From Actinomycetota bacterium (GTDB taxonomy: Bacteria; Actinomycetota; Actinomycetes; Streptosporangiales; Streptosporangiaceae), in NCBI GenBank assembly GCA_027314595.1, contig DAHVAN010000450.1:1-53202 (forward strand): 53,202 bases of DNA, written 5' to 3'. This document shows positions 48,139-50,161 of this stretch, piece after piece (the first letter of the stretch is position 1; every line of letters begins with the position of its first letter). Made by a program: the position numbers and the translations under genes. Below the pieces are notes generated by a model, which ran no database searches, was not told where the DNA came from, and saw nothing but the letters and a program-made list of their open reading frames with translations.

Positions 48139-48744
48139 TCAGCCGTCCGTCCACTTGCCGGCGATCACCGGAGTCCATGAGATCAGCTTGCCGAGCAGCG
48201 GCCCGGGCTCGGACTCGGTGATCACCATCTCGCGGTGGGCCGGGACCACGAAGCCCTCGCGCGTGGCGGTGTCGAGCATCTTGGTCAGCGGCGCGAAGTA
48301 GCCGGCGACGTCGAGGATCCCGCATGGCTTGGCGTGGATGCCGAGCTGGGTCCAGGTGAGCGCCTCGAAGAACTCGTCAAGCGTCCCGAAGCCGCCGGGG
48401 AGCATGATGAACGCGTCCGCGGCATCCGCCATCGCCGCCTTGCGCTCGTGCATGGTCTCGACGACGGTGAGCTCGGTCAGCCCGCGATGCGCCACCTCCT
48501 TCCCGACGAGCGCGCGGGTGATGACGCCGTGCACCTCGCCGCCGCCGCCGAGGGCCGCGTCCGCGAGGACGCCCATGAGCCCGCGGCGGCCGCCGCCGTA
48601 GACCAGCCTGATGCCGCGCTCGGCGAGCAGCCGTCCAAGGCTGGCCGCCGCGCCGGCGTACGCCGGGTCCGTGCCGCGGTTCGTTCCGCAGTAGGCGGCG
48701 ATCGCCAGGGGGCCGACGCCCGGGGCCCGCTGCCCGCTAGGCAT
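48139..48744 (-). CDS. LOG-family (TIGR00730) nucleotide 5'-monophosphate phosphoribohydrolase
   Basis: The 201-aa Rossmann-fold protein has IRLVYGGGRRGLMGVLADAAL and the active-site motif MLPGGFGTLDEFFEALTWTQLG (PGGxGTxxE), plus TMHERKAAMADAADAFI. The family releases free bases from nucleoside monophosphates, for example cytokinin activation in plants; in bacteria the physiological substrate is usually unclear. ATG at 48744 overlaps the aldo/keto reductase stop by 8 bp, so the two genes form an operon. Confidence 0.92.
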   Translation of the reverse strand: MPSGQRAPGVGPLAIAAYCGTNRGTDPAYAGAAASLGRLLAERGIRLVYGGGRRGLMGVLADAALGGGGEVHGVITRALVGKEVAHRGLTELTVVETMHERKAAMADAADAFIMLPGGFGTLDEFFEALTWTQLGIHAKPCGILDVAGYFAPLTKMLDTATREGFVVPAHREMVITESEPGPLLGKLISWTPVIAGKWTDG

Positions 48745-49666
48745 CCGCGCGCCGCAGGCGCTTCCTGGCCTCCTCGTACAGGCCGCCGGGCAGCGGGCCC
48801 CGCTCCGCCACGGCGATGTTGCCCTCGAGGTGGGCGGGGTTGGCCGTGCCGACGATCGTGCTCGACAGGCCGGGGTGGCTCAGCGTGAAGCGGAGCACGA
48901 ACTCCATGCGCGACATGCCGCTGTCCGCGAGCAGGTCCTCCACGCCGGAAACCTGCCACCGGCGCTGGCTCTCCTGCGCGGCGAGGCCGATCGGGCCGGT
49001 GCTCCAGTTCTTGTCGTCGGCGGCGGCCCCGCGCGCGGCGCCGCCGCGGATCAGCGTGCCCGCGCCGGTGCTGACGGCTTCGGTGATGAGGTCCTCGTGC
49101 TCGCGCTGCAGCGCCGAATAGGGGATCTGGAACACGTCGAAGACGTCCATGGCGATGTGCCCGGGCAGGTTCGGCAGGATGCCCGACATGCCGATGAAGC
49201 GGACCTTGCCCTCATCCCGCAGTTCGGTGAGGGTCTCGACGGTGCGGTTGTCCGTCAGTTCGGCGACGCTCGGCGACATGTGCACCTGCACCAGGTCCAG
49301 GCGGTCGGTGCGCAGGCGGCGCAGGCTCTGCTCGACGTCCGCCCGCACGTTGGCGGGGCTGTAGTCGTGCGGGTACGGCGGCGGCGCGTCGGTGGGGAAC
49401 TCGAGCGGGCACCCGCACTTGGAGGCCAGGAAGAACTCCTCCCTGCGGTGGCCGATGTGGCGGCCGATGAGCTCCTCGCTCCTGCCGTAGTCGGGCGAGG
49501 TGTCGATCAGGTTGATCCCGCCGTCGAGCACAGCGTTGAGCAGGCGTCCAGCGTCCACGTCGTCGATCCGCGGCCCCCGCGGCTGTCCTCTCAGCTCCAT
49601 GGCCCCGTAGCCGAGGATGGTCACGTCCGCGCCGGTGCGCCCGAGGGCTCGCTTCATGATCGCCAT
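48737..49666 (-). CDS. Aldo/keto reductase
   Basis: 309-aa NADPH-dependent TIM-barrel oxidoreductase with catalytic tetrad positions visible: Asp and Tyr in LIDTSPDYGRSEELIG, Lys in FFLASKCG, His in LDLVQVHMSPS. The C-terminal STIVGTANPAHLEGNIAVAE is the cofactor-binding end. Substrate unknown. The ATG at 49666 is preceded by TAGCGT with a 7-nt spacer, so it is predicted leaderless, sharing a bidirectional promoter with the SRPBCC gene 24 bp away. Confidence 0.93.
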   Translation of the reverse strand: MAIMKRALGRTGADVTILGYGAMELRGQPRGPRIDDVDAGRLLNAVLDGGINLIDTSPDYGRSEELIGRHIGHRREEFFLASKCGCPLEFPTDAPPPYPHDYSPANVRADVEQSLRRLRTDRLDLVQVHMSPSVAELTDNRTVETLTELRDEGKVRFIGMSGILPNLPGHIAMDVFDVFQIPYSALQREHEDLITEAVSTGAGTLIRGGAARGAAADDKNWSTGPIGLAAQESQRRWQVSGVEDLLADSGMSRMEFVLRFTLSHPGLSSTIVGTANPAHLEGNIAVAERGPLPGGLYEEARKRLRRADA

Positions 49667-49690
49667 GAACGCAACGCTATCGTGTTGCCT
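49667..49690. promoter_or_regulatory. Bidirectional leaderless promoter with overlapping -10 boxes
   Basis: Only 24 bp separate two divergent start codons. The minus-strand -10 TAGCGT (49679-49674) and plus-strand -10 TATCGT (49678-49683) overlap by two bases in the near-palindrome ACGCTATCGT. Each box is 7 nt from its start codon. Confidence 0.62.
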
Positions 49691-50161
49691 GTGCAGACAC
49701 CGCTGACATATTCGGAGTCGATCGTCATCGACCGCTCCCCCGAAGACCTGTACCGCATGATCTCGGACGTGACCCGCATGGGCGAATGGAGCCCAGTGTG
49801 CAAGGCGTGCTGGTGGGACGAGGGCGACGGCCCGCGAGTCGGCGCCTGGTTCACCGGTCGCAACGAGTCACCGGAGCGCGAGCCGTGGGAGACGCGGTCC
49901 CAGGTCGTGGCGGCGTCCCCCGGCGAGGAGTTCGCGTTCGCGGTCGGCGGCAGCTGGGCGCGGTGGGGCTACACGTTCACGCCCGTAGCCGGCGGGACTT
50001 CGGTGACCGAGTCCTGGGAGGTGCTTCCCGAGGGTCTCACGCGGTTCGGGGAACGGTTCGGAGCCGACGCGCCGGGACAGCTTGCCCGCCGGTTCGAGGC
50101 GGCGCGGACCGGGATCCCCGAGACGCTCGCCGCCCTGAAGCGGGCCGCCGAGTCGGGCTGA
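49691..50161 (+). CDS. SRPBCC / polyketide cyclase-like protein
   Basis: 156-aa START-like protein beginning at GTG 49691: QTPLTYSESIVIDRSPEDLYRMISDVTRMGEWSPVCKACWWDEGDGPRVGAWFTGRNESP, with the SRPBCC substrate cavity pattern. YTFTPVAGGTSVTESWEV and a C-terminal helix (LARRFEAARTGIPETLAALKRAAE) follow. It may bind a lipid or polyketide-like ligand; no catalytic residue is assigned. TATCGT ends 7 nt before the GTG; leaderless. Confidence 0.87.
   Translation: MQTPLTYSESIVIDRSPEDLYRMISDVTRMGEWSPVCKACWWDEGDGPRVGAWFTGRNESPEREPWETRSQVVAASPGEEFAFAVGGSWARWGYTFTPVAGGTSVTESWEVLPEGLTRFGERFGADAPGQLARRFEAARTGIPETLAALKRAAESG

Follow-up and report, generated by a model that had tools for sequence, protein, structure and literature searches.

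Can two genes that diverge from a gap of 24 nt both be transcribed without a leader from one shared promoter element? The question was raised by a stretch of DNA of 53,202 nt from a member of the Streptosporangiaceae (hereafter the window; contig C104 of G000, a genome of 6.2 Mb in 488 contigs), in which an aldo/keto reductase gene and an SRPBCC gene lie back to back. The original prediction, made from the sequence of the window, was that both genes are leaderless and are driven from overlapping -10 boxes. Here we compared the locus with its homologues, with a sample of its own genome, with similar layouts in other Actinomycetes and with published systems. With good confidence we consider the best explanation to be two divergent genes, predicted to be leaderless, that share a bidirectional promoter with overlapping -10 boxes, and to this extent the original prediction stands as the best reading, supported by the relatives and with transcript starts that are predicted.

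In the bidirectional promoters described, the two strands carry divergent TSSs at a distance of 7-25 bp (PMC10268837). The commonest distance reported for E. coli is 18 bp, with 10 and 23 bp also common (PMC12825309), and the 18-bp distance was explained by the fact that -11A and -7T pair reciprocally (PMC10268837). In M. tuberculosis a quarter of the genes with a primary TSS were reported to be leaderless, TANNNT was present at 73% of the primary TSSs and a -35 motif was absent, and a CGN extension is given as one three-base context of these boxes (PMC3898074). Closely juxtaposed divergent promoters are common in M. tuberculosis according to a figure legend in the same paper (PMC3898074).

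Layout of the gap and the two genes

The gap reads CAT (49664-49666)-GAACGCAACGCTATCGTGTTGCCT-GTG (49691-49693), leaving 24 intergenic nt (49667..49690), and the first bases of the two start codons are 25 bp apart (Table 1). The sequence confirmed the predicted pair of overlapping hexamers, a minus-strand TAGCGT and a plus-strand TATCGT, with 7 nt separating each hexamer from its start codon. The TA step at 49678-49679 is common to both hexamers, and each has a CGN extension on its 5' side (CGA before TAGCGT, CGC before TATCGT). The best -35-like hexamer on either side of the locus, at spacers of 15-20, matched at no more than 3/6 positions, and no SD-like tetramer was present in the 22 nt preceding either the reductase ATG or the SRPBCC GTG. 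Both genes show the Actinobacterial leaderless arrangement, namely TANNNT 6-7 nt from ATG or GTG and no SD. The opposed -10 elements share bases in one of the registers of bidirectional promoters (18, 23 or 10 bp), that of the window being 23 bp; the reciprocal -11A/-7T pairing, a property of the 18-bp class that is not required of the 23-bp class, is absent from the window, where the TA step alone is shared. Judged by this sequence, the divergent TSSs are predicted to be 23-25 bp apart.

Table 1. Coordinates of the features at the divergent locus.
Feature	Position	Strand	Basis
Both predicted promoters, within the gap	49667..49690	.	Sequence; 23-bp bidirectional register by hexamer position
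-10 element TAGCGT of the reductase gene, 7 nt from ATG 49666	49674..49679	-	Sequence; TANNNT at gap 6-7 in 16/27 distinct homologue upstreams
-10 element TATCGT of the SRPBCC gene, 7 nt from GTG 49691	49678..49683	+	Sequence; L002/L003 have TACGCT 7 nt from GTG
Aldo/keto reductase gene, ATG 49666-49664, predicted leaderless	48737..49666	-	Pfam PF00248 (Aldo_ket_red), 1.5e-38
SRPBCC/polyketide-cyclase-like gene, GTG 49691-49693, predicted leaderless	49691..50161	+	Pfam PF10604 (Polyketide_cyc2, SRPBCC-type), 2.2e-16
Other possible in-frame starts on the plus strand, GTG 49682 and TTG 49685	49682..49687	+	Judged unused: no TANNNT 6-7 nt upstream, no SD-like site

The identities proposed for the two genes were borne out by Pfam, which gave Aldo_ket_red for the minus-strand and Polyketide_cyc2 for the plus-strand product. 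The nearest named matches of the reductase came from Trebonia kvetii, Streptacidiphilus and Streptosporangiaceae MAGs, and its start codon was conserved in homologues aligned at residue 1. For the SRPBCC protein, the N-terminal length obtained with a start at 49691 matched that of the homologues L004-L006. The original prediction had missed GTG 49682 and TTG 49685, and the N-terminal lengths of the homologues favour 49691.

The reductase gene (48737-49666) overlaps the next minus-strand gene (48139-48744, 201 aa) by 8 nt, and because of this overlap the minus transcript is probably bicistronic. We take the product of 48139-48744 to be LOG/lysine-decarboxylase-like.

Conservation of the predicted reductase promoter

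From 42 reductase loci we obtained 27 distinct upstream regions, the 15 dropped being 11 duplicates and four that did not align at residue 1. TANNNT was present at gap 6-7 in 16 of the 27 and twice at the remaining gaps within 0-49 combined, and the boxes kept at gap 6-7 were TAGCGT, TAACGT, TAACCT and TACGGT. At an identity of at least 70% the share was 15/20. The 11 distinct upstreams without TANNNT at gap 6-7 included five at this level of identity (L029, L030, L031, L042 and L043). An SRPBCC neighbour was found in only four distinct reductase loci (L001, L034/L064, L035/L066 and L041/L062). The leaderless promoter of the reductase is thus independent of the divergent neighbour and is probably the older part of the element.

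The proposed SRPBCC promoter and a shift of register in relatives

The divergent pair was found in only four genomes. In two genus mates (L002 and L003) it is kept with a gap of 19 nt, compared to 24 nt in the window, and the plausible SRPBCC start, a GTG at a distance of 19 nt from that of the reductase, is preceded by TACGCT with a spacing of 7 nt. The plus hexamer and the start codon are both displaced by 5 nt relative to the window, while the minus box stays put, and the register by hexamer position is 18 bp in L002 and L003 and 23 bp in the window. Reciprocal -11A/-7T pairing is present in both L002 and L003. In L004 the genes are further apart, with the SRPBCC match starting about 139 nt away. 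Among the nine closest SRPBCC homologues a strict TANNNT at gap 6-7 was present in just L001-L003 (3/9); L004-L006 carry GATACT or AATACT 6 nt before ATG, a weaker match, and nothing clear as a -10 was seen before the start of the homologue in L009.

It was also observed that the SRPBCC proteins of L002 and L003 are extended at the N terminus by 19 and 23 residues, of variable sequence, which are in frame back to the leaderless GTG.

The joint 5-nt difference of plus box and start codon in L002 and L003 weighs against an alternative that we regard as unlikely, in which the reductase alone would be leaderless from this element, the SRPBCC gene would start at GTG 49682 or use a promoter located within the reductase gene, with TATCGT as a by-product of the minus box. 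This alternative draws on the much better conservation of the minus box compared to the plus box, on the presence of upstream in-frame plus starts, and on the fact that, given the minus TAGCGT, a plus TANNNT needs only T49683 more. However, neither plus start is preceded by an SD-like site, GTG 49682 has no TANNNT at gap 6-7, and the SRPBCC N-terminal length agrees with 49691.

The symmetry could also be that of an operator dyad with the arms GCAAC (49671-49675) and GTTGC (49684-49688), through which a regulator would control both genes and which would overlie one or two promoters. The 5-bp inverted arms do flank the shared TA step closely, but they are not conserved in L002-L004, and we hold it very improbable that the dyad is what the symmetry reflects; such a dyad is compatible with the bidirectional-promoter reading and could coexist with it. 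Least tenable was a reductase start at the internal ATG 49657, which presumably agrees with common reductase N termini and to which a transcript from 49666 would give a 9-nt leader, but which we rejected on the homologue alignment, in which most homologues lack the internal Met and have the first start codon, with TANNNT spaced to the first.

The leaderless signal in the genome

The own-genome sample consisted of 81 stretches, among them the window, with a total of 888,873 nt or about 14% of the genome, and genes were called in it by a simple codon-usage model. Before the 718 called starts, TANNNT occurred 28 times at gap 6 and 25 times at gap 7 (53/718), compared to a typical count of about 3 at other gaps, and because of these peaks leaderless promoters can be regarded as a visible class in this genome. 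The sample held 110 divergent pairs, four of them with a gap of at most 60 nt, and paired hexamers were found only in the window's pair. Genome-wide, the exact layout occurred at two places, the window and one on C169, and at the latter no convincing pair of gene starts was seen.

Similar pairs elsewhere in Actinomycetes

The 18-bp and 23-bp layouts were searched in 100 relatives each. The 18-bp layout was not enriched in its 100 relatives (63 match rows against 74 in a read-backwards control, summed by hand), and since these raw counts are not above the control, most raw layout matches are taken to be chance. Both flanking frames were coding-like in 11/30 (18-bp) and 7/30 (23-bp) of the first 30 loci listed per search, which are not all matches, and in 9/27 and 6/26 under a stricter position filter; the 18-bp set contains two relatives of the window's own pair (L178 and L179). 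The baseline, drawn from one genome, was provided by places in the own-genome sample with CAT, the gap and RTG, of which 28/618 (18-bp) and 6/319 (23-bp) had both frames coding-like, and the enrichment over this baseline was significant in Fisher tests (6e-6 for 9/27 and 7e-5 for 6/26). Control layouts with adjacent or separated boxes gave 0/6 (25-bp) and 1/6 (27-bp), and these patterns are rarer anyway because two more bases are fixed.

The pairs identified with Pfam were NAPRTase/ClpS, EPSP-synthase-family/cobalamin adenosyltransferase, M24 peptidase/5'-3' exonuclease, biotin protein ligase/molybdopterin oxidoreductase and MetE-like/MBL-fold; the EPSP-synthase-family protein is presumably murA. 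Divergent pairs predicted to be leaderless on both sides thus appear to recur in Actinomycetes, and the window locus is not a one-off. To call it an extreme compact case, as was done originally, was too strong: in relatives of the pair itself the gap is 19 nt, and similar both-leaderless pairs are found elsewhere in the class.

In the middle of L158 and L171, two genes, which we take to be MarR-like and glycosyltransferase-like, diverge from an identical 25-nt near-palindrome that also has the 18-bp bidirectional TANNNT layout.

Intergenic distance and promoter register

The MBL protein was present in 82 of the 120 family genomes surveyed. We examined 70 MetE-like/MBL loci (L223-L292). A MetE-like match was missing from the stretch in 27 of them, and the other 43 were divergent, 13 with a gap of at least 73 nt and 30 with a short gap. 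The short gaps comprised 26 in the 18-bp layout (gap 18-19), a share that is biased because the pair was chosen as an 18-bp pattern match, and four with the 23-bp layout and gaps of 23-24, of which L255 and L256 were scored as 'other' by the script and assigned by reading of the sequence; there were no others. The 23-bp cases and the lack of other short gaps are free of that selection. A tree of the MetE-like proteins (28/30; L237 and L257 left out) gave at least two changes of register label, and the 23-bp state may nonetheless have had a single origin.

For clpS/NAPRTase, the 23-bp register was seen in 7/13 short-gap loci and the 18-bp register in none (30 loci examined, 9 without the partner in the stretch), and for EPSP-synthase-family/cobalamin adenosyltransferase the corresponding numbers were 2/9 and none (30 loci examined, 15 without the partner in the stretch). 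Separated -10 boxes at wider gaps were seen in several loci (L325, L331 and L316). A universal locking of such pairs to these registers was rejected on the two fractions, 7/13 and 2/9, and on the occurrence of separated boxes.

Discussion

We propose that ACGCTATCGT (49674-49683) acts as a bidirectional housekeeping-sigma promoter, in which two overlapping actinobacterial TANNNT -10 boxes share the TA step. RNA polymerase would bind in either orientation and melt the same few base pairs, and transcription would start at, or within one base of, A 49666 (minus) or G 49691 (plus). Each mRNA would open with its start codon, and with their 5' ends at these proposed positions both mRNAs would be translated leaderless. 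The reductase promoter would have come first and the SRPBCC gene would later have been expressed from the same element, since a TANNNT box already contains part of a box in the opposite orientation.

The promoter of the window is likely of the bidirectional type described by Warman and Grainger, predicted to be leaderless on both sides; the assignment is based on the 18-bp (L002/L003) and 23-bp (window) registers. In the published symmetrical -10 promoters, as here, opposed TSSs flank a shared -10, and the 23 bp of the window, whose TSSs are predicted, and the 18 bp of L002/L003 are both common distances (PMC12825309, PMC10268837). In contrast to those promoters, both window transcripts are predicted to be leaderless, with start codons replacing the 5' UTRs, and the boxes are of the TANNNT type with no evident -35. 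Similar to the window are also Rv1130 (prpD) and Rv1129c of M. tuberculosis, a TANNNT organism, which are divergent neighbours with TSSs mapped at Met and Val start codons (PMC3898074); the -10 overlap is a feature described here for the window. The lysG/lysE pair of M. tuberculosis likewise has divergent promoters that overlap, and a second lysE promoter gives one leaderless transcript, but the pair differs from the window in its 108-bp intergenic region, its control by a regulator and its single leaderless start (PMC5648196). Searches of an open-access library for leaderless and divergent or bidirectional promoters listed no paper on both-leaderless bidirectional promoters.

It had further been argued that RNA polymerase cannot occupy both boxes at once and that expression would be mutually exclusive per DNA copy. 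The first point agrees with the published account, in which simultaneous binding of polymerases in both orientations is impossible, whereas the second was overstated. In the five E. coli bidirectional promoters reported, steric exclusion was accompanied by little competition at basal activity (PMC12825309). Because basal activity is too low for competition in that account, exclusivity would hold for the instant of binding and not for expression, and both RNAs can probably be made from one DNA copy, one after the other. A regulatory switch based on mutual exclusivity was rejected, as no evidence for it was seen at the locus and the published basal-level E. coli work speaks against it (PMC12825309).

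Taken alone, the locus is ordinary biology, a compact case of a promoter type that is already known and that recurs in related bacteria, and it brings together, within 24 nt, symmetrical -10 promoters and leaderless mRNAs, both of which are known in themselves. There is suggestive evidence that divergent promoters, when they overlap, are tied by leaderlessness to two gap lengths. We tentatively extend it to a broader proposal, which we judge slightly more apt to fail than to hold: both-leaderless bidirectional promoters would recur in Actinomycetes as a class, with start codons held by leaderlessness to two symmetrical -10 registers, so that overlapping boxes allow start-to-start gaps of only about 18-19 or 23-24 nt, and pairs could switch between these states in evolution. 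If this is true, the MetE-like/MBL-fold pair (26 at 18, 4 at 23) and the pair of the window (18 in two genus mates, 23 here) would both be examples. The proposal gives a testable rule, namely that where two leaderless genes have overlapping promoters the intergenic distance is set by the promoter register. Such a rule could aid the calling of start codons in GC-rich genomes, and the 24-nt element offers a compact two-gene promoter.
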